64,000 bases of DNA. It comes from Ecytonucleospora hepatopenaei. Lineage: Eukaryota; Microsporidia; Enterocytozoonidae. The DNA lies in NCBI GenBank assembly GCA_026692725.1, contig JAPMUG010000005.1, positions 141,276 through 205,275 of the forward strand, written 5' to 3'. Made by a program: the position numbers and the translations under genes. The notes under the pieces were generated by a model. It was given only the letters and a program-made list of their open reading frames with translations. It ran no database searches and had not been told where the DNA came from. Each line of letters begins with the position of its first letter. Within the stretch, counting starts at the first letter, position 1. Below, in pieces: positions 15,184-62,516 of the stretch.

Positions 15184-15814
15184 AATTATGAAAAGTTAAA
15201 TTTTTAAATTAAATTTAAAGGATTATAAACCTTATAAATTTTTTAAAAATTAATTTAATGCAATCAATTCAAATTTATTTTCTATTTTCACATTTTAAAC
15301 AATATTTATCATATAATTTAACATTTTTGGGATTATTAATTTTTTTGAAATGTTTTTAACTTTTAATGAATATTTTCATAAAGTTTTTTCTTTTAGTTTT
15401 TTATTTAAAAAATTGATTTATTTGATAAATTAGCTTCGATAGTTTATATTTAATATTTTATCAAACAAGATTTTACATACATATTTAAATATAAAATAAT
15501 TAATGACCTGAAAGCTTAACTATCAAATAAGAACTAAATAAATTTTAGAACAACTAAAACGAGATGTGTCACTCGCTAAATTTTCGCATTTTTGCTATTG
15601 GATAATGAAAATTCCCTTTTTATATTTTTTGCAAAGCTTACCTAGATGTCTGAAAGATAATTAATAAAATATAGCAACAACAGATACCTTGTTAAAATGT
15701 GTATAGTTTAATAAATACGCTAACAGCTAAAAATACATCATAAACTTTTATGAGCTTTTATTTGTAAATTTTAGTTCGTATATGACAAATATTATAGGAT
15801 AAATACAGCTACAT
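15184..15814. other. AT-rich spacer, no gene seen
   Basis: About 630 bp between family member 2 and the inverted-repeat element. I found no frame of interest on either strand, no tRNA-like fold and no simple repeat. It is the left flank of the transposon-rich island. Confidence 0.5.
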
Positions 15815-16018
15815 CCTCAAAAAAATCTCAAAGCCCTCAAAAAACCTCTAAACCAATAAATCATTTAAACCAAATATTTACCTTGGTTAATTGAAAATAA
15901 AGCTTCTAATTTATTGGTTGAAATACATCATTTGAGGGTCAAGAAAATAATTTAAGGGGCGTCGAACAGACTTTGTTGGTGAACAAATTTTTTTGAGGGC
16001 TTTGAGATTTTTTTGAGG
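15815..16018. mobile_element. short inverted-repeat (MITE-like) element
   Basis: A 30-nt sequence beginning CCTCAAAAAAATCTCAAAGC at 15815-15844 recurs as its exact reverse complement at about 15988-16018. The 140-bp interior has no coding capacity. Perfect arms of this length in otherwise low-complexity DNA point to a non-autonomous terminal-inverted-repeat element or a foldback. I could not identify a clear target-site duplication. Confidence 0.65.
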
Positions 16019-16234
16019 GTCGAGAAATATCCACCCTTTAATATTGCTTAAAAATTCTATAAATTTATCATTTTGAAAAAATTAGTATTAAAAAACCAAC
16101 AATTTACAATAGTAAGCAAAAGTATAAAGACTGTATTTTTTGAAGGTTTAATCAAATTTTTTCATACTTCTTAAATATATATAAATACTAAAAAATTTAC
16201 TAAAAACTGATTAATTCTCTTTATTTATTGTTAA

Positions 16235-27350: not shown

Positions 27351-27773
27351 ATGACTTTTCCTGGTGTACATTATAATGCGCACATGGTATTTAGAGGTTT
27401 TACAGACGGAAAACAAGCTGAAAAAAATTTTAATGCAATGAGAAATAACAGATACAGAAAAAACAAATTACAAAGAAAAAGAAGGCCTGCTTTTCAAAAA
27501 CTTGTTAGTCCAAAAAAGATTGAAAATGTTACTGAATTACCTGAAGAAATAATTACTCAGGATAAAAATATTGCTGAAATATCTGTTTATAAAAATCTAC
27601 CTGAAACTACGCCTGTAACATTAAATACAACAAAATCTATAAAAAATGAAAATGAAAATGATCATAACCAAATGGATTGTATTTTATCATTAAGTCTATC
27701 ATTGGTTATAATTATATTTTTTATTTTTTATAAAATATACAAAACATGCAAGAAAAATAAAAACAATAATTAA
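27351..27773 (+). CDS. single-pass membrane protein with basic N-terminus
   Basis: 140 residues. No signal peptide at the start (MTFPGVHYNAHMVFRGFTDG). A very basic segment (RYRKNKLQRKRRPAF, about 45-60) and a Thr/Glu-rich linker lead to a C-terminal transmembrane helix (ILSLSLSLVIIIFFIFYKIY) and a Lys/Asn tail. The arrangement, basic head plus tail anchor, is repeated by the gene at 32156-32521, where a Lys-rich block also precedes a terminal helix, so the two may be relatives. Function unknown. Confidence 0.65.
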   Translation: MTFPGVHYNAHMVFRGFTDGKQAEKNFNAMRNNRYRKNKLQRKRRPAFQKLVSPKKIENVTELPEEIITQDKNIAEISVYKNLPETTPVTLNTTKSIKNENENDHNQMDCILSLSLSLVIIIFFIFYKIYKTCKKNKNNN

Positions 27774-28030
27774 CAAAAGTTCTAAAGATTTTTTTATATT
27801 TAAATAAATATACTTTTAAAAACCTATTAATAAAATAATAGTTTTATATATTTATTTTTTGATAATTATTTTTTTACTGATATTTAAAACCTGATTATTT
27901 TTGAGTCCTTATTTTTTTACAAAGTTATATTTTTACGTTATTATAATAGTTTTTACCTATATTATATTTAGTTATATATCATCTTAAATATATTTAGTTA
28001 TATTATACTTAGTTTTAAGAATTAAAAAGA

Positions 28031-28405
28031 ATGTTATTAGTGTTTTTACAATATGTCATTAATATGTTTATGCCTTTACATCCTCTTTACATTCATGAAA
28101 AGGAAGATACAGTAACTGAAAAAACAACAACCCATACTACACCTACAACAACAATACCTACAACAGAAAGCAGTAAAGCACCAATTACAACTGAAGTCAT
28201 AAATTCTTGTGATATGAATGCATTTTCTTTAAAAAATGATTTATGCTCAGAAATGTCAAATGGACATTTAAATTATATTTATTTGGGCGTTGCCATAATA
28301 TTTATTATTATATTGTGTTTTATTGCATTTTTTATTAAAAGAAGGTTTAAAAGAACAAGGGAATATGATCAAAGTATACCATTACCACCAGTTCCAATTG
28401 TATAA
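28031..28405 (+). CDS. small type I membrane protein, family D, member 1
   Basis: 124 residues. The signal peptide (MLLVFLQYVINMFMPLHPLY) is followed by a Thr-rich stretch (TTTHTTPTTTIPTTESS) suitable for O-glycosylation, and two Cys in CDMNAFSLKNDLC. A transmembrane helix at about 82-101 (YIYLGVAIIFIIILCFIAFF), a basic stop-transfer IKRRFKRTREY and the tail SIPLPPVPIV complete it. The tail holds a Pro-rich PLPPVP motif of SH3-ligand type and ends in Val. First of five tandem paralogues. A GTCCTTATTTTTTT element lies about 125 nt upstream. Confidence 0.75.
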   Translation: MLLVFLQYVINMFMPLHPLYIHEKEDTVTEKTTTHTTPTTTIPTTESSKAPITTEVINSCDMNAFSLKNDLCSEMSNGHLNYIYLGVAIIFIIILCFIAFFIKRRFKRTREYDQSIPLPPVPIV

Positions 28406-28982
28406 TTTTATTAAAAAGTTTATTTATACTTTATTTAGATTTAAATTTTGTATGTAAAGTTTACGATTCAAATTAGTTTTTATTATTCAAATAACCTTAC
28501 TCATTGTAAATAAACTTTAAAAAATAGTATATATATTTATCATTATTTAAAATATTCTTTTATTTAAAACTTTATGTGCAACACTTTTATAAATTTAACC
28601 TTATTGTTTTTTACTAATAAATAAACTACATAATTGTTAACAATAGATATTTAAAATTTTTTGTAAAATAAACATTTTTTTATTTAAAATAAATATATTG
28701 CAAAAATAATAATGACAATTTAAATATTTATAAAACAGTTTTCTAATAAAAATTCAAATAATACAGATGAAATAAAAACTAAATGTTTTTGTTTTGCTAT
28801 AAATTATAATAGATTTATTTATATTTATTTTACACTAATTCAATTAAAAAATGATATTTAAAATCAAATTTAATTTAGGTCCTTCTTTTTTACAGATTTA
28901 AACTTTGATTTTTAAAAATTATTAGTGAACTTATACAAATTTAAAATTAGATATTTATAAAGTAAAAGATACGTATAAAATA
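28406..28982. other. long intergenic leader region of family D
   Basis: 577 bp, unusually long for this genome. The only shared feature is GGTCCTTCTTTTTT at 28878-28891, about 95 nt before the next start; equivalents precede the other family D genes. No frame or RNA gene seen. Confidence 0.5.
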
Positions 28983-29300
28983 ATGAAAATGATATTTATA
29001 TTTTTAGCATTTATTTTATCATGGTATTTACCACCACAAGATCAACATTTGTACATGGATGGCACAAATAACACAGATGGACCAGAAAAAGATTTAGCTT
29101 GGGATCATAGTTTTTGCAATTATCCATCATTTTTCATTCCTGAATTTTTATGCACAACTGAAAATGGAATTAAAATTAATGAATGGATTAGTGATCATCC
29201 AGTGTATTTTTATGGTGGTATTGCATTGTTTTCAAGCGTTTCTCTTTGGGTTATTGCATTCTGTATAAACAAAAAATTAAAAAGAAGAAGTGAATATTGA
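28983..29300 (+). CDS. small type I membrane protein, family D, member 2
   Basis: 105 residues. The signal peptide (MKMIFIFLAFILSWYLPP) precedes a short ectodomain with two Cys (SFCNYPSFFIPEFLCTTENG) and the family motif INEWISDHPVYFYGGIALF leading into a transmembrane helix (SSVSLWVIAFCI). The short tail NKKLKRRSEY matches the stop-transfer KRRxEY of members 1 and 4 but lacks their extension. Function unknown; surface or endomembrane location inferred. Confidence 0.75.
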   Translation: MKMIFIFLAFILSWYLPPQDQHLYMDGTNNTDGPEKDLAWDHSFCNYPSFFIPEFLCTTENGIKINEWISDHPVYFYGGIALFSSVSLWVIAFCINKKLKRRSEY

Positions 29301-29748
29301 AACTTAATTAAATTGTTTTTTATTTTGTAAAAAAATATTTTTATTAATTTACTTTTAAAAGTTTAAAAAATAAATTAATTATACTTACTTGTTCTTTATT
29401 TTAAAACAATTATTTTATAATGTTTTTTGCTAACATTTTCTTTATATGAAATATTCTAAAACTAATTTTTAAATAAAAAATTATATTGTTTAAACAGTAA
29501 AATAAATATTGTATTTTAAAAATATCTAATTATTATATTAAAAAATTTAAAAATATGCACTGATAAAACATTTGTTACATTTAAAAATGATACATGTGTT
29601 AATTTGTTTTTTAATACTTTTAAAATTTTATATTTAAAAGTAAATTAAATTTGTATCCTCATTTAAAGTATTCTTTAGGCATTTAATTGGTATTGTATTA
29701 TAAATTATATAAAAACATTAATTATAAAAATATCTAAGGTATATAAAA
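29301..29748. other. intergenic leader region
   Basis: 448 bp, AT-rich. TATCCTCATTTAAAG near 29655 is in the position of the family D upstream element. Nothing else recognised. Confidence 0.5.
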
Positions 29749-30192
29749 ATGATGTTTGTTCTTTTTTCAATAATCGTTACAGCTTATTTACAAGGTTATG
29801 ATTTTCATCATTACATGAAAAAAAGCAAAACTTACATACCCAAAGCAATAAATGATTTAAAAACTACAACAGAAAAGATTAGTGGTTTACAGATTACAAC
29901 AGAAAAAAGCAGTGATTTGAATATTCCAAATCCAAATATCACAAATAATATACCAGAAAGTTATTTTCTTTGTAACGATCCAATTTACAATGGTTCAGAG
30001 TATTATTGCCAAAATTTAAATGATGAAAATGTAAAATGGTATATTAGCCATCCAACCTGTGCTTATATTGGCATTGCAATAATTGGAATTTTATTTTTAT
30101 GTTTAGCTACATTTATTATTAAGAAATTCTTAAGAAACAAAAAAAATTATAAAATCAAAAATATGCCATTACCACTTACACCAGAAGTATAA
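29749..30192 (+). CDS. small type I membrane protein, family D, member 3
   Basis: 147 residues. The signal peptide (MMFVLFSIIVTAYLQG) is followed by two copies of a Thr/Glu/Lys repeat (TTEKISGLQ, TTEKSSDLN) and two Cys (FLCNDPIYNGSEYYCQNLND). The strongest family motif is VKWYISHPTCAYIGIAIIGI, continuing as a transmembrane helix (LFLCLATFII). The basic KKFLRNKKNYK and tail NMPLPLTPEV follow. The tail again combines Pro-rich sequence with terminal Val. Closest to member 4. Function unknown. Confidence 0.77.
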   Translation: MMFVLFSIIVTAYLQGYDFHHYMKKSKTYIPKAINDLKTTTEKISGLQITTEKSSDLNIPNPNITNNIPESYFLCNDPIYNGSEYYCQNLNDENVKWYISHPTCAYIGIAIIGILFLCLATFIIKKFLRNKKNYKIKNMPLPLTPEV

Positions 30193-30793
30193 AACTTAAA
30201 AACATTTTTCAAAAAAAATCACAAATACGTAATATATCATTCACGTATTTTTATTCAAATAAAGTTATATGAAATAATGTTTTGTTTAATGAGAAACCAC
30301 TTTTTAATTTGTTTGTGTTTTTAAATAGTAAAATTAATAAATCTAGCTATTATATCTTAACAACTTATTTTGCTTGATTTTAGCCATGTAAATTACATTT
30401 TCCAATAATTCTAACTATTGAAAATAACATGAGAATAATAACATTCTTAGGAATAACTTCCCAGGTCAAGCTTTAAGCTTTAGTGAAAGACTATTAACAA
30501 ATGATAATTAATATTTAATAATTGCTTAAAATATGGGTTGAATTATTAAAAACATTTATATAGTTTTAAATTAAGCTTATTTTATAAGCAAATATTAAGG
30601 TTAAATCCTATTAGATATGTTATACGCTTATAAAAAAATTATATATAATAGATTTTTTCCTAATATTGTAAAATTCCATCTTGAAATTTTATTTAATTTT
30701 TATCCTTATTTTTAAATTATATTAGTTTTTAACAAATATTTCTTAGTAGTAAAGTTAAGAACATATAACAAGTAGCATATAATCGTATATTGA
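30193..30793. other. intergenic region between family D members 3 and 4
   Basis: 601 bp. A small imperfect palindrome AAGCTTTAAGCTTT is at 30469-30482, and TTTATCCTTATTTTT near 30700 is the family upstream element, about 92 nt from the next start. No gene seen. Confidence 0.5.
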
Positions 30794-31132
30794 ATGATAT
30801 TTATATTTTTAGCAATAATACTGACAGGTGCTTATCGACCACCTGAACATTTTAAAATTATAAATCATAATGAAGATATACCAGAAGGTTTTACCATATG
30901 TAAAGAGCCAAATTTTTATATTTCAAACTATTATTGCAATAATACAAAAGATGGCAATAATATTCAAAATACAAAATGGTTTATTAGCCATCCAACATGT
31001 GCTTATATTGGAGTTGGTATGATTGGAATTATATTTTTATGTTTTATTGTTTCTTTTATTAAGAAAATGTTTAAAAAAAGAAAAGAATATCAATCAAAAC
31101 GTATTTTATTACAGAAAATTACACAAGTTTAA
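30794..31132 (+). CDS. small type I membrane protein, family D, member 4
   Basis: 112 residues. The signal peptide (MIFIFLAIILTGAYRPP) precedes an ectodomain with TICKEPNFYISNYYCNNTKD and the motif TKWFISHPTCAYIGVGMIGI. A transmembrane helix (IFLCFIVSFI), KKMFKKRKEYQSK and the terminus LLQKITQV follow. The signal peptide resembles that of member 2, the ectodomain that of member 3. The end ITQV fits a class I PDZ ligand (T-x-V) or a C-terminal-valine ER-exit signal; neither is shown. Function unknown. Confidence 0.77.
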   Translation: MIFIFLAIILTGAYRPPEHFKIINHNEDIPEGFTICKEPNFYISNYYCNNTKDGNNIQNTKWFISHPTCAYIGVGMIGIIFLCFIVSFIKKMFKKRKEYQSKRILLQKITQV

Positions 31133-31445
31133 AATTTAATTTTTATTAAGAAATTTAAAAAAACATTAACACTTTTTTTATTTAAATATAATTGTATATA
31201 AAATAAATTAAATTTATATTAAAATTAATATTTGTTTTTTATATACAATTTATACTATATAATTAAATGTATGTAATATTTAACAAAAGTTTATAAATTT
31301 ATTTTCTAATAATTGAATTTATAATATGATATTTAAAACCTTGATAAATTTACATCCTTCTTTTTAATACTTAAAACATATTAATAGTTATAAAGTAAAA
31401 TCATATAAAATTACAATAAATATAACTATTAGTTAAAAATAAAAA
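31133..31445. other. intergenic leader region
   Basis: 313 bp, AT-rich. TACATCCTTCTTTTT at about 31351-31365 is the family D upstream element, about 94 nt before the next start. Otherwise featureless. Confidence 0.5.
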
Positions 31446-31790
31446 ATGATAATTTTATTTTTTAAGTTTGTATTTCCATTCTTCTTTAGAAACCTTTTTA
31501 TGCAGTGGTTTCAAGATAATGATGATAAAGAAATTGAACAAAATAGCAAAACAAACACTATTCAAACTAATGAAAATGATGTAAAGTGTGAATGTTCATT
31601 ATTATCAATTAAGAATCTATTTGCTTCTTCAGGTGAAAATGATAACAGTTTACAAAAATGGATTTCTGAACATCCTAGCTGTGTATATGCATTCACTGTG
31701 TTGTTTTTTGTCTTAATATTGTTTTTTGTTGTAATTTACATGAAAAGAAGATCAAAAAGATCTGTAAGATTTGAACAATCTATGGTATAA
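31446..31790 (+). CDS. small type I membrane protein, family D, member 5
   Basis: 114 residues. A hydrophobic leader (MIILFFKFVFPFFFRNLFMQ) is followed by an acidic Asn-rich segment, Cys in VKCECSLLS, and the motif LQKWISEHPSCVYAFTVLFF continuing as a transmembrane helix (VLILFFVVIYM). The tail KRRSKRSVRFEQSMV ends in S-M-V. It is the most diverged member: the second Cys pair is shifted and the leader is less typical, so an N-terminal anchor cannot be excluded. Confidence 0.7.
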   Translation: MIILFFKFVFPFFFRNLFMQWFQDNDDKEIEQNSKTNTIQTNENDVKCECSLLSIKNLFASSGENDNSLQKWISEHPSCVYAFTVLFFVLILFFVVIYMKRRSKRSVRFEQSMV

Positions 31791-32155
31791 GCATTAATAA
31801 AATAAATTATGCTTAAAATTTAAGGTTAAAAATTGATAAATCAATATAAGTAAAACAATTATAATTTTAAATTAATTGTTTTATTTACTAAAATTATAAG
31901 AATCAAGTTTCCTGATACATATTTAAAAATTAATTAATTAAAAATTTACTTATTAATTTTTTAATTAGTGATTTAATAAAATTTTTATTGAAACCCTAAC
32001 ATTTTAATTTCTAATAATTGATCTTTGATATTTTTTATAATTGATATTTGATTATACTATTTTATAGTTACATACTTAATAATATTATATATTTTATAAA
32101 AAAAATTTATAAAGGTTTTTATTTTTGACAAAGATTAGTTTAAAGCTTGATTAAA
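31791..32155. other. intergenic region
   Basis: 365 bp, AT-rich with ATTAATTAATTA stretches (31930-31970). No promoter-like CCC next to the following start and no open frame seen. Confidence 0.45.
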
Positions 32156-32521
32156 ATGGGAATTCCTCATAGACCAATGATTTTTAATTTAGATCAATTA
32201 CACCGTTTTCAAACTTATAAACACCCAACTACCAAAAAACCAAAAAAGAAGAAGAAAATCCAAACAATCAGCACATTTTCTAGTGGTAGACCAAGATATC
32301 CAAGTATTTATCATAGTAAAAAAACAAAAAATACAAGCTTAAATAGTGAAACTACTAATAGTTTAAAAAATATAAATGCTTTTAAAAACAAAACATCTTT
32401 AAATTTTAAAAAAGACAATACCAATAATTACAATCATTCTTTATGTGTAGGATTGATATCTTTTTCTATTTTAGGAATTATTTTATTTATTCTTTATAAA
32501 AAATATAAAAATAAAAAATAA
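32156..32521 (+). CDS. basic tail-anchored membrane protein
   Basis: 121 residues from ATG 32156; a longer frame would need a TTG at 32147 and is not preferred. The N-terminus is MGIPHRPMIFNLDQLHRFQT, followed by a Lys-rich block (TTKKPKKKKKIQ), a Ser/Thr/Asn linker and a C-terminal helix (LCVGLISFSILGIILFILY) with tail KKYKNKK. It resembles the 27351-27773 protein in order of parts. The Lys-rich block could also act as a nuclear or polyanion-binding sequence. Unknown function. Confidence 0.63.
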   Translation: MGIPHRPMIFNLDQLHRFQTYKHPTTKKPKKKKKIQTISTFSSGRPRYPSIYHSKKTKNTSLNSETTNSLKNINAFKNKTSLNFKKDNTNNYNHSLCVGLISFSILGIILFILYKKYKNKK

Positions 32522-32673
32522 ATATTTATTTATAAAATCTTTTATCATTGAAGTTATTGTTTTTTTTATTAAATTTATAATCAATTATTCAATTAATTTT
32601 ATTATTTCAATTTTAAGGTTAAATTAGAAATTACCCTATTTTCAAATAGAATAAATTTTAAAATATAAATAAC

Positions 32674-32889
32674 ATGGAAAAAGAACAACAAATAATTTAT
32701 AGTAGTATGTTTAAAGTTTTGTTAAATCTTGAAAATGGAACTCTTTTATGGTTATTATTATCTTTTTTAGTTTTACTGTTTTACATAGCTCTTTTTATGT
32801 ATTACATGTCGAGAAGGAAGAAAATTAAACAAAGAAATAAAATACAAAATATTGTAAAATCAGGTGATATGTCAATTTTAGACGTTTAA
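32674..32889 (+). CDS. very small single-pass membrane protein ending in LDV
   Basis: 71 residues: short polar N-terminus (MEKEQQIIYSSMFKVLLNLE), transmembrane helix at about 24-45 (LLWLLLSFLVLLFYIALFMYY), basic SRRKKIKQRNK and terminus DMSILDV. TTACCCTATTTT about 40 nt upstream supports expression. No family recognised. Confidence 0.6.
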   Translation: MEKEQQIIYSSMFKVLLNLENGTLLWLLLSFLVLLFYIALFMYYMSRRKKIKQRNKIQNIVKSGDMSILDV

Positions 32890-33001
32890 ACAAATTAATA
32901 TCAGTATATTATTTTTAAAAAACTATATAAAATTATACATTAAATAAAACATTATAAAATTTTGTTTTTAAATAACCTTACATAATTCAAATTATTAACG
33001 T

Positions 33002-33187
33002 ATGGGTAACTTAACAAATATTATGGATAATAAACATCTAAATAAAAATAATTCTTATAATATTGAACGCAATGTATTTTTAGTTATTGCTATTATACTT
33101 ATAATATATTCAATATTAGAATTTATATATATTTTATGTATTAAGGTAAATGAAAGAAAAAATAATGTTATGATAATACGTTATTAA
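33002..33187 (+). CDS. very small single-pass membrane protein
   Basis: 61 residues: Asn-rich N-terminus (MGNLTNIMDNKHLNKNNSYN), transmembrane helix at about 25-47 (VFLVIAIILIIYSILEFIYIL) and a short tail NERKNNVMIIRY. ACCTTA lies 28 nt upstream. At this length it could be a chance frame; the good helix and its place in a run of like genes favour a real gene. Confidence 0.48.
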   Translation: MGNLTNIMDNKHLNKNNSYNIERNVFLVIAIILIIYSILEFIYILCIKVNERKNNVMIIRY

Positions 33188-33431
33188 ATGAATCAAGAGA
33201 GTTTAACAATAATTTATTATAAATTAAATTTTATATGTTGTAATTTAAAACAGTTTATAGAAAAAATAATTTTTTAAAACTATCATTTTTTGTAACTTTT
33301 ACATATATAAAATTATAAAAGGTATTAAAATGGTATTTGTTTTTATTAAATTTTAAATCAAAAACATTTAATTAAAAATAAATTTATCCCTTATCAGGTT
33401 TTTAATTTAATTCTAATTTATTAATTACAAA

Positions 33432-33839
33432 ATGTTGTCTGGTTTATTTACATTAATATCATTTGTACTATCAATCACAAAATATACAGAAAAGATTTTA
33501 AGTATAAAAGAATTTGACAGCAATGAATTAAGTCCAGATTTTTATGATAAAGAAAACATAAGTGAAAATGTTACTGGTTTATATGAGGAAGTAAAAAATA
33601 ATTTGAATGAAAATAGTTTAAACAATACGGAAGAAAATAATTTTTCACAATCAGAGAAATGGTGGTATCAACCACCTTCTTTAGGAGAAACCGTTTACAA
33701 TTTTTTACTCTCCAGATCATTTGTTGGTACAGTTTGTTTGGTTTTAATGATTATAGGCATGTTTTATGCTTTTATACATTTTAAAAAGAAAGTAGGTGGT
33801 GGTAAAAAGAAAAATAAGTTAAGAGTGATATCAGTATAA
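33432..33839 (+). CDS. type I membrane protein with C-terminal valine
   Basis: 135 residues. The signal peptide (MLSGLFTLISFVLSI) precedes an acidic, sequon-containing ectodomain (ISENVTGLYEEVKNNLNENS) with no Cys, and the membrane-proximal SEKWWYQPPSLGETVYNFLL. A transmembrane helix (FVGTVCLVLMIIGMFYAFI), HFKKKVGGGKKKNK and the end LRVISV follow. It is not an obvious family D paralogue but has the same plan. Upstream, TTTATCCCTTAT is about 45 nt from the start. Unknown. Confidence 0.7.
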   Translation: MLSGLFTLISFVLSITKYTEKILSIKEFDSNELSPDFYDKENISENVTGLYEEVKNNLNENSLNNTEENNFSQSEKWWYQPPSLGETVYNFLLSRSFVGTVCLVLMIIGMFYAFIHFKKKVGGGKKKNKLRVISV

Positions 33840-34083
33840 AATTAAATTATGAAAATACTTGTACTTATTTTTTAACAAATTGATTAAATATCTTAAATTA
33901 TTTTTGAGTAAATTTCACTAAAATGTTTTTAAGGTAAATAAAATTTAAAAGAACATTAAAAAATTAATTATCGCAGTGATATTTTTAGACCTTTTTGATA
34001 ATCTTATTTTATTTATAGTATTTTATATTCTTTAATCTTATTCTGTATTATTTGATACTTAAAATCAGTTTTATTTAATAAAG

Positions 34084-34410
34084 ATGAATAGAATAGGTTT
34101 ATTTTATTTTCTATTGTTTTTGATGTTATTTTCTCATTGTAAACGAGAAACCAAAATATCTTTTTGTAGTGGAAATGTTTTAGATCAGTGGGAAGAAAGT
34201 ATTTTTGATACAACTAAAGATTTATACGATGTAAATAAAAAAGAAACTTTAATCAAAAAAGATGCTAGCTCTTATTACGTTATTGATAAAAAATATTTAA
34301 ATTGCTGTAAAGAATATTTTGTAATATTTTTTATATTTTGTTTACTTGTATTAATATTTTTATTAAAGTTAGGAAGAAAAAGAAGAGGAAATGATGGATA
34401 TTTAATTTAA
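34084..34410 (+). CDS. small type I membrane protein with Cys-rich ectodomain
   Basis: 108 residues. The signal peptide (MNRIGLFYFLLFLMLFSHC) precedes an ectodomain with KISFCSGNVLDQWEES and, next to the membrane, KYLNCCKEYF. A transmembrane helix (VIFFIFCLLVLIFLL), KLGRKRRGNDG and the end YLI follow. The Cys could form one intramolecular bond. Unknown. Confidence 0.68.
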   Translation: MNRIGLFYFLLFLMLFSHCKRETKISFCSGNVLDQWEESIFDTTKDLYDVNKKETLIKKDASSYYVIDKKYLNCCKEYFVIFFIFCLLVLIFLLKLGRKRRGNDGYLI

Positions 34411-35828: not shown

Positions 35829-36308
35829 ATGTTACTTTCAAAAACTAATCATGTTTTGTGTTTTACTTCCCTTGCACTGCTAAGTGTTGGGGTACTTATA
35901 TATTTATTATATAAATTAGCTATGTATTGTAATAATAGCATATGCAAAAGTAAAATTACAAAAAATTCTAATACAGTAACATATATTAAGGACAATAAAA
36001 ATAAAAAAGAACTAACCATTGAATTTACAAATAATCAAGAAACAACATCTGAACACAACCAAACACTAGAAACAGTGGTTAATACACCAACATATGAAAA
36101 TACTTTACCAGAATGTAGTTTACTAACGTATTCTACACGTGATTCTTTTGCATTACAAGAAGAACACCATTATGAAGTGATTAAAGAACCTGAGACAAAA
36201 GCAAATAATGATGATTTTTATGAAAATATAAACAATAAAAAAGAGAGTGTTTATTTAGATATGTCTAATACTTCTACAATATATGAAAATATGCAAAATA
36301 AAGAATAG
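35829..36308 (+). CDS. membrane protein with ITAM-like tyrosine motifs
   Basis: 159 residues from ATG 35829; a longer frame would use TTG. A single N-terminal transmembrane helix (about 9-29, LALLSVGVLIYLLYKLAMY) is followed by Lys-rich KSKITKNSNT, then a disordered acidic tail. The tail carries Tyr in repeated contexts: TPTYENT (Tyr 89), HHYEVI (115), DFYENI (131), SVYLDM (142) and TIYENM (152). The last three are spaced YxxI-x7-YxxM-x6-YxxM, like an ITAM. The same motifs also fit Yxx-hydrophobic adaptor-sorting signals. Positive charge after the helix favours a tail on the cytosolic side. Confidence 0.72.
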   Translation: MLLSKTNHVLCFTSLALLSVGVLIYLLYKLAMYCNNSICKSKITKNSNTVTYIKDNKNKKELTIEFTNNQETTSEHNQTLETVVNTPTYENTLPECSLLTYSTRDSFALQEEHHYEVIKEPETKANNDDFYENINNKKESVYLDMSNTSTIYENMQNKE

Positions 36309-43477: not shown

Positions 43478-44344
43478 TTAATATCTTCTTTGTCTTTCCT
43501 TGCTAAAATCAATACGAATGCTGTCACAATTTGGTAATGGACCAGCCCTTTCCAAAGCTTCTTTTGCATTTTTTGCAGCATCAATAGATTGGAAATTCAT
43601 AAAACAAAATCCTTTTGATCTTCTTGTTTCCCTGTCACACACAACATTCAAATCAAAATCATCTCTAATGTGTCTTGATAAAACATCTCTTAATGTATCA
43701 TTGTTATATTCATAACCAATTCCAAATACAACCAGCCCAGCTGAAGGTTCATTTTCTCTTCTCCTGTCATCTCTTCTCCTATCATCATTAACTCTGTCAC
43801 CGAAATCCCTTCTGTCATCTCTTCTGTCATCTCTCCTGTCGTCACGTCTGTCATAATGACCTTCTCTTCCTCTGTCATTGTAACCACCCCTTCTGTCATC
43901 TCTCCTGTCGTCACGTCTGTCATTGTAACCACCTCTCCTGTCATCACGCCTGTCATCTCTCCTGTCGTTGTAACCACCACGACGATCGTCAAACTCTCTT
44001 CTTCTGTCATCACCTCTGTTGAAATCTCTCCTTTCATCTCTTCTGTCATTATATCCAGGTCTCCTATCATCTCTTCTGTCATTGTAACCACCTCTTCTGT
44101 CATCACCTCTGTTGAAATCTCTCCTTTCATCACGTCTGTCATTATAGCCACCTCTCCTGTCGTCACGCCTGTCATCTCTTCTGTCATTATATCCACCTGT
44201 TGATTCTTTGTATTCTCCTAATACAGCATCTGCTTTGCTTTTAAACCCTTCAACGTTTCTTTCCTTTTTAGGAGTTTCTTCCTCCCATCCTACTGTTTGC
44301 TCTGTAGAATTTGCTTCCTTTGACTTTGCTTTGGCTCTTGGCAT
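43478..44344 (-). CDS. Tra2-like RRM protein with Arg-Asp repeats
   Basis: 288 residues from ATG 44344. An in-frame extension would require TTG at 44371, and the CCC motif at 44356-44358 lies between the two, favouring MPRAKAKSK as the start. Residues about 60-190 are tandem YNDRRDDRR and FNRGDDRRGG units. The C-terminal RRM has LVVFGIGYEYNNDTLRDVLS (RNP2 side), RRSKGFCFMNF (RNP1) and SIRIDFSKERQRRY, closest in pattern to transformer-2/SR proteins (GVFGL..., RSRGFAFVYF, RVDYS). RD/RR repeats stand in for RS domains. Likely RNA-binding in splicing or mRNA handling. Confidence 0.65.
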   Translation of the reverse strand: MPRAKAKSKEANSTEQTVGWEEETPKKERNVEGFKSKADAVLGEYKESTGGYNDRRDDRRDDRRGGYNDRRDERRDFNRGDDRRGGYNDRRDDRRPGYNDRRDERRDFNRGDDRRREFDDRRGGYNDRRDDRRDDRRGGYNDRRDDRRDDRRGGYNDRGREGHYDRRDDRRDDRRDDRRDFGDRVNDDRRRDDRRRENEPSAGLVVFGIGYEYNNDTLRDVLSRHIRDDFDLNVVCDRETRRSKGFCFMNFQSIDAAKNAKEALERAGPLPNCDSIRIDFSKERQRRY

Positions 44345-47833: not shown

Positions 47834-48504
47834 AATTGTTTTGAGTTGCTATTAATTTTTATTCCATTTGAAACCTGTGTTTTACTCACGTGAGTGTAAA
47901 AACTGAAACAAAATATTTGACTTGATTGAAGTATAATAAAATTTCATAGATTTCTTTTAAACATTTTATATATTTCATTTATTAAATATAAATTTATTAT
48001 AAAAAAACAATTTACCTTTTTATATATCATTTTTTAGTTTCATAAATTATTTATTTGTATAAAAATAAAATAAAACAGATTGATATTGTTTTAAACATTG
48101 AATTGTTTTCTAAAACAGTAATTTCAAGTAAAATAAAGTAAAGTTATAAGATTGTATTGTAATTATATGATAAAATTATATATTAATATTATAAAAAATT
48201 TAAAAAAATTAAAAAATATTACCTTAAAATTATTTATAAATCTTTTTATACCCATACATTATTATATTATATAATTTTTATATAAACAAATTGTATATAT
48301 TATATAATTTATATTATATTACTATATTATACTATATTATACTATATTATACTTTATACTATATTATACTTTATACTATATTATACTTTATACTATATTA
48401 TATAATTATACTTTACTATTTTTTATAAACATATACGTATAAATTATATTTTTATATAAATATTACACAAACATAACATATAAATTTAAATATCATTATT
48501 TAAT
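47834..48504. other. divergent spacer PTP1-like / HIRA with 17-bp repeats
   Basis: 671 bp. Near the PTP side a short palindrome CTCACGTGAG occurs at 47886-47895, a candidate upstream site. The HIRA side holds tandem TACTATATTATACTTTA repeats (next feature). No gene seen. Confidence 0.5.
48315..48410. repeat. ACTATATTAT / ACTTTATACTATATTAT tandem repeat
   Basis: Three 10-bp ACTATATTAT units followed by three 17-bp units extended by ACTTTAT, about 95 nt upstream of the HIRA start. Confidence 0.75.
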
Positions 48505-51018
48505 ATGAAAATATTTACTACTAATATAACTCACCAAATTAAACACTTAGAACCTGTCTTTACTTTAGATGGTAATAATGAAAATGGTGAAATAGCAAGT
48601 GGAGGCATAAATGGAGAATTGAAAATATGGAATTTTCCCTCCAAAAGAGAAAAAGCAAAAGCAAAGCTAATTAAAAAGTTTAAAAAGCATTCTGGCTGTG
48701 TAAATGTGGTAAAGTATTCAAAAGATGGCAAATATTTATTTACAGGAGGAGATGATGGCAAGCTCCTAATATTTGAAAACAAAAAAGTCATTTTTACGTA
48801 CAAACACCCATCAGACATATGTGCAATAGCATGTGATGATAGTTATGTATATTCAACAGATATAGATGGCAATATAAATAGTTTCAGTATAAAAAACAAT
48901 TTCAACCACATGTATAAAATAGAGGTAAAGGGATTCCTAGCAATGGAAGCAAAGAATAGCTTTTTATATGTACAAACAACCAATAGCATAATACAGTATA
49001 GTGGTGATACAGTAGTAAACAAAGCAGAAGTAGAGTACCATTACCTGGTAGAGCATATGGCATGTAAAATAGTGTTATGTACCAATTACATAATAGTGGG
49101 CACAAGCCATAACAAAGGGAATAATTCAGTAGATATATATACATATTCATTAAAGAGAGTGTATAGTTTAATAGGGCATGTAGCACCAGTAGAGGTGATA
49201 GCATATAAGGAATATACTACTAATAGTAATATATGTAATAATAGTAATATATGTAATAATATAAATAATACTAACAATACTAATATATACAATATAAATA
49301 GTAATAACAATAATACAAACAGTAATAATATAATGGTAATATGCTTCTGTCAAGATTTAAGTGTAAGTTTCTGGACATCCCAATCATGTCGTCCCTTCCT
49401 CCTCCTAAAGAATTTCAGCACTGGACCAGCATTAGATTATTTCTGGAGTGGTAATATATTATATATAAGTTTCTATGATGGAACAGTAAAAGGAATAGAG
49501 TTGGAGGAGAAGGAAGTAGAAGAGTTAAAGAGGAAAGAGGAAGAGGTGGATTTACACTTTTCAGTGACAACAAAGAAATTGAAGTCAATGGAAAATAATA
49601 ATAAAATAAAAGATGATAATAATACTGATATATTAAATAATAATACTGATATATTAAATAATAATACTAATAATACTAATATATGTAATAATAAAATAAA
49701 AAGTATATCAAATAATACTAATACTAATATATGTAATAATACTAATACTAATAAAATAAATACTGATATATGTAATAATATAAATAATACTGATAATATA
49801 TGTAATAATATAAATAATGTTAGAAGAGTAATACCTAAAATAATATCATTAAAAGATAAACATAATACTAACACTAACACTAATAATATATCATATAAAC
49901 ATAAAGGTAATACTAATAATACTAATATATGTAATAATGATTTTATATATTATTCATATAATGATGATAATTGTATATTTATTAATATTAAACCATATAA
50001 TTATATATTAAATAATACTAATAATAATAATAATACTAATAATAATACTAATAATTATTTTACTAATATATTTACTATTACTGATAATATACTTAAATTA
50101 AATGTATCATGTAAAATACAATATATTAATAATATCATATATGTATATAGAATAGTAGATAATACTGATGTACTGATATATAGCATACATACATATAGTG
50201 ACATACTACTGGCATATAATTCATATTTATTAGTGGTATATGATGATAGCAGTAAGGTAATACAGATATATGACATATATACAGGTAGACTGATACATCC
50301 ATATATAGTAAAGGAAGTAGCATATGTATCATTATCATATTATAATATAATAATATTAAGTAAGACAGGTATAATAGAGGTATATAATATATGTAACATA
50401 CATAACAGTAATACATGTAATAATACTAATATATTATATAATTGTAATAATACTAATACATATAATACTAATACATGTAATATATTATATAATTGTAATA
50501 TTATATTATCATGTAATATACCTATATTAAATAATATACAGAATATAAGATATTTTACTAATGATAATAAACATTATTTAATAGTTGATTATCATAATAA
50601 ATATAGTTATTTATATATTAATAATATATGGATAATATATGATATATTAAACAATAATCATATATTAAATAATAGTAACACAAATAATAATACTAATAAT
50701 GATATTATTAGTAATGATTATATTATTAGTAATGATTATATTGATGGTATTATATTAGCTAATATTCATATATTATACCATATGCATAATAGTATACATT
50801 ATGATAATGCATTACATAACATTAATAACCTAATTGGTATATTCATCAATAATGTTGATTATATCACTATTGGTATTAAATATAAGATTGAATATTATAT
50901 GGATGTATTATATGATTATTGTAGTGATATTAAGGTAATAGAGAAATATATGAAAATATTAGTAGATAAGAAAGATAGTGAAGAATTTATTGATTATATT
51001 ATTAATAAATATAAATAG
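48505..51018 (+). CDS. HIR1: HIRA/Hir1 histone chaperone, Asn-inflated
   Basis: 837 residues. An N-terminal WD40 propeller (about 1-345) has KHSGCVNVVKYSKDGKYLFT, GGDDGKLLIF, then LIGHVAPVEVIAY (about 222), CFCQDLSVSFWTSQSCRPFL and ISFYDGTVKGIELEEKE. These match the HIRA propeller blades VGHxAPVEV and xxxDRSLSVW, followed by the D-G-S/T-V blade. From about 370 the protein is mostly Asn/Thr/Ile tracts (NTNICNN), then a diverged C-terminal region containing strand-like segments (LLVVYDDSSKVIQIYDIYTG). HIR complexes deposit H3-H4 outside S phase. The second half has drifted toward AAT-ACT codons, so its boundary is hard to define. Confidence 0.85.
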   Translation: MKIFTTNITHQIKHLEPVFTLDGNNENGEIASGGINGELKIWNFPSKREKAKAKLIKKFKKHSGCVNVVKYSKDGKYLFTGGDDGKLLIFENKKVIFTYKHPSDICAIACDDSYVYSTDIDGNINSFSIKNNFNHMYKIEVKGFLAMEAKNSFLYVQTTNSIIQYSGDTVVNKAEVEYHYLVEHMACKIVLCTNYIIVGTSHNKGNNSVDIYTYSLKRVYSLIGHVAPVEVIAYKEYTTNSNICNNSNICNNINNTNNTNIYNINSNNNNTNSNNIMVICFCQDLSVSFWTSQSCRPFLLLKNFSTGPALDYFWSGNILYISFYDGTVKGIELEEKEVEELKRKEEEVDLHFSVTTKKLKSMENNNKIKDDNNTDILNNNTDILNNNTNNTNICNNKIKSISNNTNTNICNNTNTNKINTDICNNINNTDNICNNINNVRRVIPKIISLKDKHNTNTNTNNISYKHKGNTNNTNICNNDFIYYSYNDDNCIFINIKPYNYILNNTNNNNNTNNNTNNYFTNIFTITDNILKLNVSCKIQYINNIIYVYRIVDNTDVLIYSIHTYSDILLAYNSYLLVVYDDSSKVIQIYDIYTGRLIHPYIVKEVAYVSLSYYNIIILSKTGIIEVYNICNIHNSNTCNNTNILYNCNNTNTYNTNTCNILYNCNIILSCNIPILNNIQNIRYFTNDNKHYLIVDYHNKYSYLYINNIWIIYDILNNNHILNNSNTNNNTNNDIISNDYIISNDYIDGIILANIHILYHMHNSIHYDNALHNINNLIGIFINNVDYITIGIKYKIEYYMDVLYDYCSDIKVIEKYMKILVDKKDSEEFIDYIINKYK

Positions 51019-51156
51019 TATATTATATAATAATATTAAATAAATTAATATTATTTAATAAATATATTATTTTAAAGTTAGTATTTTTTAATAAATATAT
51101 TATTTTAAATTAATATTATTTAATTTACTCCTTATAAGTAGTTTAACAATTTAAAA

Positions 51157-52173
51157 ATGTTATTTATTTTTTTAAATTTTATTTGCTGTTCTGGTAATGA
51201 TTCTAATAAAAGAGAATTATGCTCTAAAGGTCCATATACTGACTGTATATTAGCAAAGGGTAATAAAATATTACTTCGTGTAAACATGGAACATATATTA
51301 CCAGAATATATGGATAATCCTAATGATATTACTTATTTTACAATTAATTATTACAAGGATGTAAAGATATTAAAAGATATGTCAGAAGATCCTAATATAC
51401 ATTATAGCTTTAAATGCAATATTAAACTATCAATACCACATTCCACTGAATTACAGGTTGAACATAATAAAATTAAAGAAAATATAAAAACTTCTAATAC
51501 TTTAGACATAAAAGTAAAAAAGGGTAAAATTCAACTTGATACTTTAAATGCATATCCATGTGTTATACTTAATAAGGATATTACTATAAATACGACAAAT
51601 ACTATTAATACTACAAACACTATAGGTAATTATAGTATTACATTAAAGAAAAATCACCTGATACAAATACCAATTACAGATTATAAACAAATTATACTGA
51701 ATGTTAAAAATGATAATATTTTTATTGATGAAAGTTTAATAGATATGAAAAAAGATTTTTTACTTTTTATAATCCACTTTAAACTTCTAATAGGTCATTT
51801 TTTTATAGAATTACCATTAAACTGTAAAGAAGTAGAAAAGAAAGAAATTTTAAAAAATAGCAATGGAATTAATTTGATAAAAAGTGATTTTAAAGATAAA
51901 TTGGATGCTTATCAAAAAATTAAATCAGGTTCAATTAATTATGAATTTGAGGCAATTTTACTTGAAAACTTAGTGTATGATGTACCAGAAAGTTTTATAG
52001 CATGGGGTATTGAATCTAAAGCTAAACCAGATGATACACAACCTGATAAAGATTTATCAAGGAAAACATCTAAACTTAAAATAATTATGCTAATATGTAT
52101 ACCTATATTTTGTATAATTTCTATATTAATAATTGGTTATATAATATATAAGAAAAAATGTAATATACGTTGA
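51157..52173 (+). CDS. type I membrane protein, unknown
   Basis: 338 residues. The signal peptide (MLFIFLNFICCSG) is followed by an ectodomain starting with Cys-containing RELCSKGPYTDCILAKG, strand-rich throughout (YFTINYYKDVKILKDMSEDP; FLLFIIHFKLLIGHFFIELP). The short insert TINTTNTINTTNTI is of the local Asn/Thr type. A transmembrane helix (IIMLICIPIFCIISILIIGY) and tail KKKCNIR follow. No family recognised. Translation overlaps no neighbour; it begins 138 bp after HIRA. Confidence 0.72.
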   Translation: MLFIFLNFICCSGNDSNKRELCSKGPYTDCILAKGNKILLRVNMEHILPEYMDNPNDITYFTINYYKDVKILKDMSEDPNIHYSFKCNIKLSIPHSTELQVEHNKIKENIKTSNTLDIKVKKGKIQLDTLNAYPCVILNKDITINTTNTINTTNTIGNYSITLKKNHLIQIPITDYKQIILNVKNDNIFIDESLIDMKKDFLLFIIHFKLLIGHFFIELPLNCKEVEKKEILKNSNGINLIKSDFKDKLDAYQKIKSGSINYEFEAILLENLVYDVPESFIAWGIESKAKPDDTQPDKDLSRKTSKLKIIMLICIPIFCIISILIIGYIIYKKKCNIR

Positions 52174-54246: not shown

Positions 54247-55473
54247 TTAACATTCTAATTCTTCTTTAACAATATCTATATTAACTTCTTGTTTTATTTT
54301 ATTTTCATTTATATTAGTAATATTGCTATTATTTTCTTCCTTAATAAATATTTTGTTATCATCATTATTCTTATTACTTTTTGTTACATTTTTAAGGTTA
54401 TTCTTATATACATCATTTACATCTTTCATAAACTTTTTTATTTCATTATCAGTATATGCAATATGTTTTAAGTTATATTTAGCACAAAAAAGTTTACGTT
54501 TTACTCGCAAAGTATTTTTGTTTTTAAATATATTATTTTCATCCCAATCTTTATATATAATAGCTAGTTCATTCTTTGTGACAATATTTGTAACATTATT
54601 TGTTACATTATTTTGCGAAAAATCCATGTCTTCCAATATACAAAAATTTTCTAATTGTATAAAATGTTTTTTAAACCTTATCATTTTGTTATATAAAGTA
54701 TAATCAATAGAAAATATTGCTTTTACATTATCTGTATACATATTTAATAGATTTTGAAATTCATCAATTATAGTAAAAGCTTGAATAATATGTGCAACAC
54801 TAACATGCATATACATGTCAGTCAACATCATTTTAAACTTTAACTTTTCATTAAAATCTTTATAGTTTGCTATCATAAATTTATTGTATTTATGTGCAGC
54901 TAAAATTAGATTAGTAATAGAATTTAGAAAAAAACATTAAAATATAATTTTCTATATTCTAAAAAAGTCATTCTAAGTTTTGTAGTTTTACAAAATTTAT
55001 ATATTGTACCTTCATGGAAAAAATCATCAATTTTTAAATTAGTATTCATTTTAAGATTATAAAAAGGTATAAGATATTTTTTCAAAAAAAAATAAATGGT
55101 TGAGCTTAAAGCTTTTGTTCCTAATGTAAATTTGGTAAAATCAGGCTTTTCCAAATTTATAAGCATGTTTTTGATAAATATATCATATTCATTGTGTTTT
55201 GGGCCAGACCAAACTTTAGAGAATAAATTATATATAAATAAATCTTCTAAAATTTTTTCATTAAATGTTTTAAATAATTCTTCCATATCCTTAAAATATT
55301 CATTATCATTAATATTATCTAAAAGTGTTTCTGTTGTGTTGTTTATTTCTTTTTCTACACTATTGTGTAAATGTAAAGTTGTAAGATTGTATTCATTTTC
55401 TTTTTTTATAATAATAGCATTATAAAGAACATTAGCAAAAACAAATAAAATTTAAAAATTTAAAATAAATCAT
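54247..55473 (-). pseudogene. frameshifted third copy of secreted family C
   Basis: ATG 55473, directly behind AAACCCT, starts a signal peptide (MIYFKFLNFICF) that shifts frame at a T5 run (55437-55441) and would stop at 55434-55432. The next frame continues through WSGPKHNEYDIFIKNMLINL to a stop at 54926-54924, just after a T7 run (54928-54934). The third segment then carries FSIDYTLYNKMIRFKKHF and IYKDWDENNIFKNKNTL, matching the 34.6 kb relative. The pieces align end to end with that gene, so only the two homopolymer indels break it. It is either a young pseudogene or a sequence error. The C-terminus is acidic/Asn-rich. Confidence 0.8.
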
Positions 55474-55480: not shown

Positions 55481-57760
55481 TTTATTATAAAGTTTAAAAA
55501 GCATAGACTAACATCTAATTAGAAAATTAATATTTCTTTAACAATACAATTAATATGTACAAAAGACATAGTAAAGATGTGTATATATTTATAACAATTT
55601 ATTCATTAGATTATTTAACCTTAAAAGTTTAAAAAAATATAATTATTTATATTTTTACATAAAAACAAAATAATAGCATTATTTAGTAAACTTTTAAACA
55701 TGTTTTTATTATATATCAATTTATTAGTAATAGAAAAACAATAAAAACTTATTTATTTATTCATAAAAATAGAAATCAATAGATAAAAAAGTAAGTTTAT
55801 TTTATAACATAGGAAAAGGATAAGGTAAGTATAAAAAGTAACTAATAAACATAAAATAACAAATACAATCAAATATGTAAAAATAATTTTTATCACTATA
55901 TGGTTAAGAAACAAAGATATAAACTAAATATAAAAATACGTTTTTATTACTAATACACATGATACTATTAAAATTTTGAATCATTATAAAATGAACCATA
56001 TAACTTAATGTATAGTAAAATAGTATCATTTAAATCAATATTATGTAATACACAAAACAATAGTAATATTTAAACAATTATATAATAACTATACTTAATA
56101 TGATTAATATACATATTACAATAAATAAAATAAATATTAAAGATATTATTTAAACATGTTACTAATTAATAAATTATAAAAACTAAAACATTAGAGATAA
56201 TATCAGGTAATAAATATTATAGCATTATAAAAATATAAACATAAATATAGAAGTAATAATAAAGTAAAAAAGATAAAAAAATACATTAGACACATTTATA
56301 TTATATTATATTATAGTATATTATATAATATTATTTGATTAAAATATATATTATATAATACATCAATATATAACATTATTATAAGATAATATAAAGATGT
56401 ATTAGTAAAATCAAAAGAATATAATTTAAAATGATATTTAAAATAAATTTAACTTCAATAACACATAATACAATATAAAAGTGTTAATATAAAATTTAGT
56501 AGTTTATTGTATAATTATTATATAGGTATTGTTGTATATTGATAAAATATTAGATATAAAAAATACTAACATAAACAGTAATAATAGTAATAATACTTAA
56601 CAATATAGAATATAATATTAAAAACATTAAAAATAAAATATAAGGTAAAATGCATTAAACTAACAATATAAAGAAATATTAAATAAAAAATAGAAAATGT
56701 TTAAAAGCATATGTAATATATAAAGAAAATAATAAATATAAAAAATATAAAGAAATATTAGCATGTAATAATAAATGACAATAATAACAATAATAACAAG
56801 TATTTGTGTTTTATATAAAAAAGATAAATGATACTACTAGTAAATTATTAAAGATAGAAATATATTAATTATACTCTTGTTTTAGTATTTTATTACTTAA
56901 TTGTTTTATTACTTAATTATTTTATTACTTAATTATTTAGTTACTTTATTATTTTATTATTTTAGTATTTTAGTATTTTATTAATTGTTAATTTTATAAG
57001 TTTTAAACATACTAATAAATGAATCAAATTTTACATATAAGATAAATATTTATTAAAAACAATATATGTAAGGTTATAAATAAATCTTGTGCTATACCTT
57101 ATAAAAATATTTTATTAGTAAAATTATAAACATAAAAAACAGTAGTAAAATTATAAGTATATTTAATAGTATAGGTAAAATTTCAAGGGCAAAAAGTAAT
57201 GTAAACTTTTTAAAAGTTAAATTTTATTAGTAAAAAGTTACAAAAATAATTTCAACTTTTTAGGCAAAAATATTTTATAAAGCACAATTAAAACAAGAAA
57301 AAGGTAAAAAACTAACTTAAACATAATTTTATCAAATTATTTAACACCTCTTTTATTAGATAACATGTTTTTTAAATAAAATTGTTTTTTTATTGTTGTA
57401 TGCCACATCCTGACAAAATTTACAAATAATAGGTGTTTAAAATAAACTTGTGTATTTCTAAGTTTTAGCATTTTTATGTAAGTACAAGCATTATAGCATT
57501 CTTTTATATTTAATTAGTTTGAAAAGTTTATTTAAACTTTACAGCTTAAAAAACAAGTATTAGATAAAGTCATCCGTAGTTATTTATTCAGTGATAAGTT
57601 TTTAATCAAAATAGAGTTTATTAATAAGTAGTGTTAAAAAAATAAGAACCATAATTTTGATAGGTTAAAAAATGTTATTTAGTAAATAAAAAAAGGTTTA
57701 ATAAATAAATCTCTAATTTTCAAACTAATATTTATTTTGTCTCCTTTAACATGAAAGTCA
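55474..57760. other. gene desert
   Basis: About 2.3 kb of extremely AT-rich DNA without a frame I would call. It has A-rich plus-strand bias, imperfect repeats of TTTTATTACTTAATTA at about 56881-56960, and scattered ATAATAA runs. No tRNA, rRNA or mobile element recognised. Confidence 0.6.
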
Positions 57761-58205
57761 ATAATGTAATAATGTAATAATGTAATAATGTAATAATGTA
57801 ATAATGTAATAATGTAATAATGTAATAATGTAATAATGTAATAATGTAATAATGTAATAATGTAATAATGTAATAATGTAATAATGTAATAATGTAATAA
57901 TGTAATAATGTAATAATGTAATAATGTAATAATGTAATAATGTAATAATGTAATAATGTAATAATGTAATAATGTAATAATGTAATAATGTAATAATGTA
58001 ATAATGTAATAATGTAATAATGTAATAATGTAATAATGTAATAATGTAATAATGTAATAATGTAATAATGTAATAATGTAATAATGTAATAATGTAATAA
58101 TGTAATAATGTAATAATGTAATAATGTAATAATGTAATAATGTAATAATGTAATAATGTAATAATGTAATAATGTAATAATGTAATAATGTAATAATGTA
58201 ATAAT
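57761..58205. repeat. 8-bp satellite (AATGTAAT)n, about 55 copies
   Basis: Uninterrupted head-to-tail copies of the 8-bp unit with no visible variants. Because 8 does not divide by 3, three units encode an 8-residue LLHYYIIT period on the minus strand, giving a spurious 161-codon frame. The purity implies recent slippage or expansion. Confidence 0.95.
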
Positions 58206-60228: not shown

Positions 60229-60280
60229 TAGCGCGAGAAAACTTGACGGAGTGTAACGAAGTTAAAGTTTTGGAGCGCTA
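60229..60280. other. hairpin at the satellite boundary
   Basis: TAGCGC-GAG-AAAACTT (60229-60244) pairs with AAGTTTT-GGA-GCGCTA (60265-60280): 13 paired bases per arm, symmetric 3-nt internal loop, 20-nt apical loop. Its right end GCTA runs into the first satellite unit, each of which also ends in GCTA. Confidence 0.75.
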
Positions 60281-61254: not shown

Positions 61255-61518
61255 AGTTAGTAGGTAGGTTAGTTTAGTTAGTTAAGGTTAGTTTAGTTAG
61301 TTTAGGTAGGTTAGTTAGGTTAGTTTAGTTTAGTTTAGTGTTTAAGGTTAGTTAGTTTAGTTAGTTAGTTAGTTAGTTTAGTTTAGTTAGGTTAGTTTAG
61401 TTAGGTTAGTTAGTTAGTAAGTTAGTTAAGTTAGGTTAGTTAGTTAGTAGTTAGTAGTTAGTTAGTTAGTTTAGTTTAGTTAGGTTAGTTAGTTAGTTTA
61501 GTAGTTTAGTTAGTTAGT

Positions 61519-61586
<68 letters not shown>

Positions 61587-61623
61587 AGGTTAGTTAGTTA
61601 GTTAGTTTAGTTAGTTAGTTAGT

Positions 61624-61654
<31 letters not shown>

Positions 61655-61726
61655 AGTTTAGTTAGTTAGTTAGTTTAGTTAGTTTAGTTAGTTAGTTTAG
61701 TTAGTTAGTTAGTTTAGTTAGTTAGT

Positions 61727-61757
<31 letters not shown>

Positions 61758-61783
61758 AGTTTAGTTAGTTTAGTTTAGTTAGT

Positions 61784-61818
<35 letters not shown>

Positions 61819-62293: not shown

Positions 62294-62324
<31 letters not shown>

Positions 62325-62516
62325 AGTTAGTTAGTTTAGTTAGTTAGTTTAGTTAGTTTAGTTTAGTTAGTTAGTTAGTTTAGTTAGTTAGTTAGTTTAG
62401 TTTAGTTAGTTTAGTTAGTTTAGTTAGTTAGTTAGTTAGTTTAGTTAGTTTAGTTAGTTAGTTTAGTTAGTTTAGTTAGTTAGTTAGTTAGTTTAGTTTA
62501 GTTTAGTTTAGTTAGT

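Follow-up and report, generated by a model that had tools for sequence, protein, structure and literature searches.

A Tyrosine-Rich, Putatively Membrane-Anchored Protein of the Shrimp Parasite Ecytonucleospora hepatopenaei and Possible Readers of Its Tail Motifs

What reads the tyrosines, if anything does, in the tail of a small predicted membrane protein from the shrimp parasite Ecytonucleospora hepatopenaei? The protein has 159 residues, and its gene is located in the final 64 kb of contig C9, a stretch called the window below, within a genome of 3.09 Mb in 13 contigs. The assignment to this microsporidian agrees with two diagnostic primers of the E. hepatopenaei spore-wall PCR: the forward primer matches the genome once, free of mismatches, and together with the reverse primer it spans 514 bases. 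A first-pass annotation of the locus described a membrane protein with an ITAM-like run of tyrosine motifs that may be phosphorylated by host kinases, and gave sorting by adaptors inside the parasite as the competing reading. The features of the gene are collected in Table 1.

The open reading frame (ORF) is real and looks coding. Its codon-usage score was determined to be 0.200 bits per codon, relative to a mean of 0.164 (SD 0.093) for the long ORFs of the same genome, and this score was reached by 3 of 667 off-frame segments. One transmembrane helix was predicted by both of the methods used, and a disordered tail after it by the second. A single hydrophobic segment was found by hydropathy, with the best 19-residue stretch at residues 9–27, and the AlphaFold model, calculated from the single sequence, contains one helix at residues 5–37 with a pLDDT below 50 for all of residues 39–159, a predicted disordered tail of roughly 120 residues. 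No clear cleavable signal peptide was seen by eye in the protein, and a cleaved signal peptide was rejected as the main reading because the hydrophobic core appeared too long by eye.

Table 1. Features of the tyrosine-rich ORF and its product, with positions in the 64-kb window
Feature	Position	Strand	Basis
ORF (159 aa), predicted single-pass membrane protein with disordered tail	35829..36308	+	translation, hydropathy, codon score, AlphaFold
Hydrophobic helix core, residues 9–28, predicted TM helix or signal anchor	35853..35912	+	hydropathy; AlphaFold helix 5–37
Basic juxtamembrane stretch, residues 29–45 (K29, K40, K42, K45)	35913..35963	+	flanking charge
Y89 YENT, YxN type, +3 not hydrophobic	36093..36104	+	translation, motif scan
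Y115 YEVI, Yxx-hydrophobic	36171..36182	+	translation, motif scan
Y131 YENI, YxN + Yxx-hydrophobic	36219..36230	+	translation, motif scan
Y142 YLDM, YxxM + Yxx-hydrophobic	36252..36263	+	translation, motif scan
Y152 YENM, YXNM: YxN + YxxM + Yxx-hydrophobic	36282..36293	+	translation, motif scan
27-nt direct repeat, copy 1, encodes YENINNKKE	36219..36245	+	self-comparison
27-nt direct repeat, copy 2, encodes YENMQNKE + stop codon	36282..36308	+	self-comparison

The side of the membrane on which the tail lies can be estimated from the charges that flank the helix. K5 and the free amino end precede it, and the four lysines of the juxtamembrane stretch follow it, ahead of the first acidic residue at D55. 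The more positive flank of a membrane helix favors the cytosolic side (the positive-inside rule), and the tail is weakly favored to lie in the parasite cytosol, by a margin of one or two charges. A tail in the parasite cytosol would suit sorting by the parasite and not the docking of host proteins.

All five motifs listed by the first-pass annotation were found in the tail, and the spacing YENI-x7-YLDM-x6-YENM that it reported is exact in the translation. Four of the seven tail tyrosines, all of them in the predicted disordered region, begin Yxx-hydrophobic motifs (abbreviated YxxΦ), and those of YENT, YENI, and YENM have Asn at +2. The term ITAM-like does not hold in the strict sense, since the pattern Yxx[LI]-x6-8-Yxx[LI] matches the protein 0 times; the relaxed form Yxx[LIM]-x6-8-Yxx[LIM] matches twice. 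ITAM membership fails because the +3 residue of the second tyrosine is Met, and a strict ITAM identity was discarded on the absence of pattern matches and the terminal Met of both YLDM and YENM. The consensus for CD79 is [D/E]x7[D/E]x2YxxLx7-10YxxL/I (PMC3553015). The YENI-x7-YLDM spacing resembles it, with E120 and D128 at the acidic positions by eye, but the +3 residues are Ile where the consensus has Leu and then Met where it has Leu or Ile. In the same source, the tyrosines of ITAMs are treated as potential adaptor sites of the Yxx-hydrophobic kind, and phosphorylation is reported to block adaptor binding (PMC3553015); for this reason the motif alone tells little.

The ITT motif YXNM of membrane IgG, at which Grb2 docks (PMC4263166), is a closer signaling analogue than the ITAM. 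YENM fits this motif in full; YENI and YENT share with it the YXN core. The differences are that the protein comes from a parasite and has no immunoglobulin context. It shares with the EPIYA effector CagA the notion that a pathogen protein may carry sites for host kinases. Tarp and Tir are likewise bacterial tyrosine-phosphorylated effectors. The protein differs from CagA, Tarp, and Tir in that it belongs to a eukaryotic parasite and no EPIYA motif was found by eye in its translation, and the secretion route is not part of the likeness. An EPIYA effector identity was rejected on the missing motif.

The excess of motifs over chance is mild. When the 126 tail residues were shuffled 100,000 times, using patterns that had all been picked after the tail was seen, at least three YEN were obtained in 0.03% of the shuffles, at least four YE in 0.5%, at least two YxxM in 0.3%, at least three YxN in 6.8%, at least four YxxΦ in 2.4%, and at least two Yxx[LIM]-x6-8-Yxx[LIM] in 0.03%. 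The second comparison was with 198 mechanically defined ORFs (ATG start, at least 100 residues, overlaps resolved by length). Internal parts of the genome, sampled as 20 stretches of 10 kb, supplied 155 of them and the window the other 43, and some are probably spurious. The fraction of tyrosines that begin YxxΦ was 31% in this background and 4/7 in the tail, which is no significant enrichment (P = 0.14). With the tyrosine-rich ORF itself counted, its YxxΦ density was equaled or exceeded in 28 of the 198 ORFs, and a triple Yxx[LIM] run was found in four, where the other three are low-complexity or rich in Tyr, Ile, and Leu by eye. By eye, the remaining sampled ORFs with an N-terminal anchor do not look rich in Yxx-hydrophobic motifs either, which counts against a sorting role. 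A genome-wide pattern search for two YEN separated by 45–75 bases gave two matches. One is the gene itself; in the other, the frame that reads YEN is interrupted by a stop codon, as judged by eye.

These numbers bear on the possibility that the tail is species-specific and disordered and that its tyrosines have no function, the role of the protein lying elsewhere, for example, as a surface or spacer protein. The repeated YEN would then have come from duplication within the locus, together with drift, in a genome that is AT-rich and laden with low-complexity sequence. We take this explanation seriously, at a probability that stays below one-half. The lack of YxxΦ enrichment agrees with it, as does the occurrence of the strict ITAM pattern in 15 of the 198 background ORFs, with the tyrosine-rich ORF not among them. 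Repetition as such is also common, in that some Tyr-containing tripeptide occurs at least three times in 6 of the 128 ORFs with no more than 15 Tyr (five others besides this one), and any tripeptide does so in 21 of the 81 ORFs of up to 200 residues (20 others), many of them low-complexity. The specific repetition of YEN argues the other way: two or more copies were found in none of the other 197 ORFs, whereas this ORF carries three, a number that the residue shuffles rarely reached. Two of the copies lie within the 27-nt direct repeat, whose two units are 81% identical (22/27), which would fit a duplication. A self-match as good turned up in only 10 of 500 codon shuffles of the ORF; the repeat is, however, the best among many comparisons, and the duplication is weakly supported.

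Whether the parasite could phosphorylate these tyrosines itself was addressed through its kinases. A search of the genome with the PF07714 profile gave 19 matches, 18 of them above the cut-off. A Lys two residues after the catalytic Asp marks a Ser/Thr-type kinase loop, and this Lys was read by script in the catalytic loops of 18 of the 19 matches; the loop of the remaining match is HGDLTT, which resembles that of Bud32. No tyrosine-kinase loop was found among the 19. An ITAM tail has to face a cytosol supplied with a Syk-type kinase; here the charges lean toward the parasite cytosol, and none of the 19 parasite loops is of the tyrosine-kinase type. An SH2 profile search of the genome gave no match, and its control was silent too. 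In a survey of four other microsporidian species, the kinomes consist of Ser/Thr kinases alone, with 27 to 41 conventional kinases in each (PMC4280135). Since one profile returned 19 matches here, some kinases of this genome were probably missed. The earlier remark that microsporidia have no dedicated tyrosine kinases is borne out as far as it was tested, by the 19 loops and by that survey (PMC4280135). Any phosphotyrosine signaling at the tail would more likely be the host's, because neither a tyrosine-kinase loop nor an SH2 match was found in the parasite.

The tail could in that case be directed at the host, as a phosphotyrosine docking tail in the shrimp cytosol on which host kinases of the Src or Syk/Shark type would act. 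Host SH2 proteins would then bind it, Grb2/Drk at each of the three YxN motifs and PI3-kinase p85 at YLDM and YENM. We consider this unlikely, and we give little credence to its specific form, in which the three YxN and the two YxxM sites of the anchored tail would make up a host-phosphorylated Grb2/PI3-kinase platform on the parasite surface. The threefold YEN, which is the most unusual feature of the tail, fits the YXN core read by Grb2, and YENM fits the YXNM motif and is, on paper, predisposed to both Grb2 and p85; in the membrane IgG study, however, Grb2-family adaptors were detected at YXNM and p85 was not (PMC4263166). The count of motifs is also post hoc, and the YxN sites are the group most often matched by the tail shuffles. 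The parasite genome gave no tyrosine-kinase loop and no SH2 match, which agrees with the use of host enzymes, but the silent control weakens the SH2 result. Parasites of this genus are in direct contact with the host cytoplasm, according to one report (PMC8730814), but the flanking charges lean weakly toward the parasite side and the protein lacks a clear signal peptide for cleavage. A thin literature search of titles and abstract openings, which is no proof of absence, revealed no microsporidian protein described as exploiting tyrosine phosphorylation by its host.

Host-exposed proteins of Nematocida provide a further comparison. They show an excess of transmembrane or signal segments, of clade-specific genes, and of large gene families (PMC5423893). 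The predicted helix and the lack of a detected homologue are shared with these proteins, which were labeled by proximity (PMC5423893), and both speak for exposure to the host. The gene is single copy, however, and does not belong to a family, which speaks against it. The protein thus has the transmembrane segment, is perhaps clade-specific, and lacks the large family.

The orphan status itself was established by several searches. Among 25 candidate homologues, nothing besides the protein itself was found at E ≤ 1, no paralogue was found in its own genome at E ≤ 10, and a Pfam scan matched no family. The searches with the flanking proteins of 379 and 524 residues also returned each one's own copy alone; the self-match of one covered 310 residues (82%), and for the other the 7994 candidates with the most words in common were scored. 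The orphan status is weak evidence because both flanking proteins also match only themselves, and relatives of the parasite may be poorly covered.

The parasite genome was also searched for proteins that could read Yxx-hydrophobic motifs as they stand. A mu-adaptin-like protein (contig C12, L002) scored 64 bits with PF00928 (cut-off 31.6), and a second match, below the cut-off at 26 bits, is perhaps delta-COP. The first was aligned pairwise with what we take to be the sequence and the pocket positions of human AP2M1. Of nine positions compared in the pocket region, five are identical (D176, K203, L404, W421, and V422), three are mildly changed (F174Y, L175I, and R423K), and one is lost, with a poor match at V401K. 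The YxxΦ pocket therefore looks mostly intact in this alignment. No solved structure was matched by the mu-adaptin at E ≤ 0.01; its C-terminal part gave E values of about 1 at best, with unrelated chains ranking beside AP-2 mu, and because of this failure the proposed pocket rests on the Pfam match and the pairwise alignment. Three Adaptin_N matches were found in the genome, two of them in incompletely fetched proteins. One adaptin (contig C8, L044; partly fetched) is nearest to the beta subunits of AP-2 and AP-1 (E of 1e-7 to 1e-6), and the other two proteins are nearest to gamma-COP and beta-COP and distinct from the AP-type beta-adaptin. The small-subunit adaptor family gave one match. An AP-type complex able to read Yxx-hydrophobic motifs thus appears to be held by the parasite. 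No match to the clathrin heavy chain was found in the genome by a search whose control was nearly silent, so that its absence is unproven. The AP-type mu- and beta-adaptins were thus detected without their clathrin partner, and the complex possibly works without clathrin.

Our tentative preference, held with less than even confidence, is that the protein is anchored by its N-terminal end with the tail in the cytosol and that its Yxx-hydrophobic motifs are sorting signals for the parasite mu-adaptin. The protein, which has no detected relatives, would be inserted through its N-terminal helix, and the disordered tail of about 120 residues would most likely lie in the parasite cytosol. YEVI, YENI, YLDM, and YENM may then act as sorting signals that are bound by the mu-adaptin, and this binding would steer the protein to its membrane. 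The likeness to known YxxΦ signals, which are read by AP mu subunits, consists of the four motifs, the predicted disordered single-pass tail, and a mu-adaptin from the same genome; the differences are that there are several motifs and that the first is about 80–90 residues from the helix. Sorting is at least as available an explanation as phosphorylation by the host, because mu- and beta-adaptins are present and the charges lean toward a tail inside the parasite, and the reading that had been named as the competitor gains ground. It has its own difficulties. The YxxΦ rate in the tail is not significantly above background, the flanking charges differ by little, the search with its nearly silent control matched no clathrin heavy chain, and the mu-adaptin has no significant match by sequence to a solved mu subunit. 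The recurring Glu at +1 and Asn at +2 are not required for adaptor binding and also count against it. The motifs resemble both parasite sorting signals and host docking sites, between which sequence alone does not discriminate. Sorting and tyrosines without function are about equally likely, and the host-directed tail is not favored.

The location of the gene adds some context. At the end of the contig, positions 61254–64000 of the window (about 2.7 kb) consist of irregular repeats of the TTAG, TTTAG, and TTAGG type, which are probably a telomere, and on this reading the end of the gene is about 25 kb from the telomere. These repeats are preceded by a 30-bp satellite (60277–61254; 32.6 copies, 100% matches), and an 8-bp repeat is present at 57760–58205 (55.8 copies, 100% matches). 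Upstream of the gene there are nine small plus-strand ORFs (27351–34410), each single-helix and membrane-like by eye, and then the 379-residue ORF at 34564. The ORFs at 28983, 29749, 30794, and 31446 are mutually related, but no match between the tyrosine-rich protein and any protein of this run was found at E ≤ 1e-3. Its layout, with the helix first and the long tail after, is the reverse of that of these neighbors, which by eye have a C-terminal helix and a short basic tail, a feature that counts in favor of the preferred reading. PLPxxPxV is the C-terminal sequence of the tails encoded at 28031 and at 29749, and six of the nine ORFs end in Val or Ile. Promoter-like CCCTT was found upstream of 12 of 76 long ORFs, relative to 4 of the 76 when the opposite strand was read and 44 of 2000 random 60-mers. 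A promoter argument for the tyrosine-rich gene was nevertheless dropped, since, of the forms tried, no form that it carries is clearly enriched.

Several other parts of the window were noted. Two adjacent minus-strand ORFs at 54247–55286 are perhaps one gene split in two, and that at 54247 resembles the 379-residue ORF (26.6% over 128 residues). Positions 48145–51416 are 98.9% identical to contig C5 (L025 6747–10000, the end of the fetched stretch), and an ORF of 837 residues within them is 100% identical to the C5 copy over two BLAST pieces; the match reflects a duplication of recent date or stems from the assembly. About 230 bases at 15790–16020 are 94.9% identical to contig C6 (L011 773–1003), outside the kinase of L011. 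A protein encoded at 43478–44344 has by eye many repeats of the DDRRGGYNDRR type and then an RNA-binding-like domain.

If sorting is the correct reading, a reduced AP complex would gain a candidate cargo, in a genome where no clathrin heavy chain was matched, and the protein would offer a small glimpse of how such parasites sort their membrane proteins. If the tail is instead directed at the host, the protein would be a microsporidian example of the use of host tyrosine phosphorylation. With either of these two readings, the protein is a candidate for a role at the surface or in trafficking, in a shrimp parasite of economic importance.
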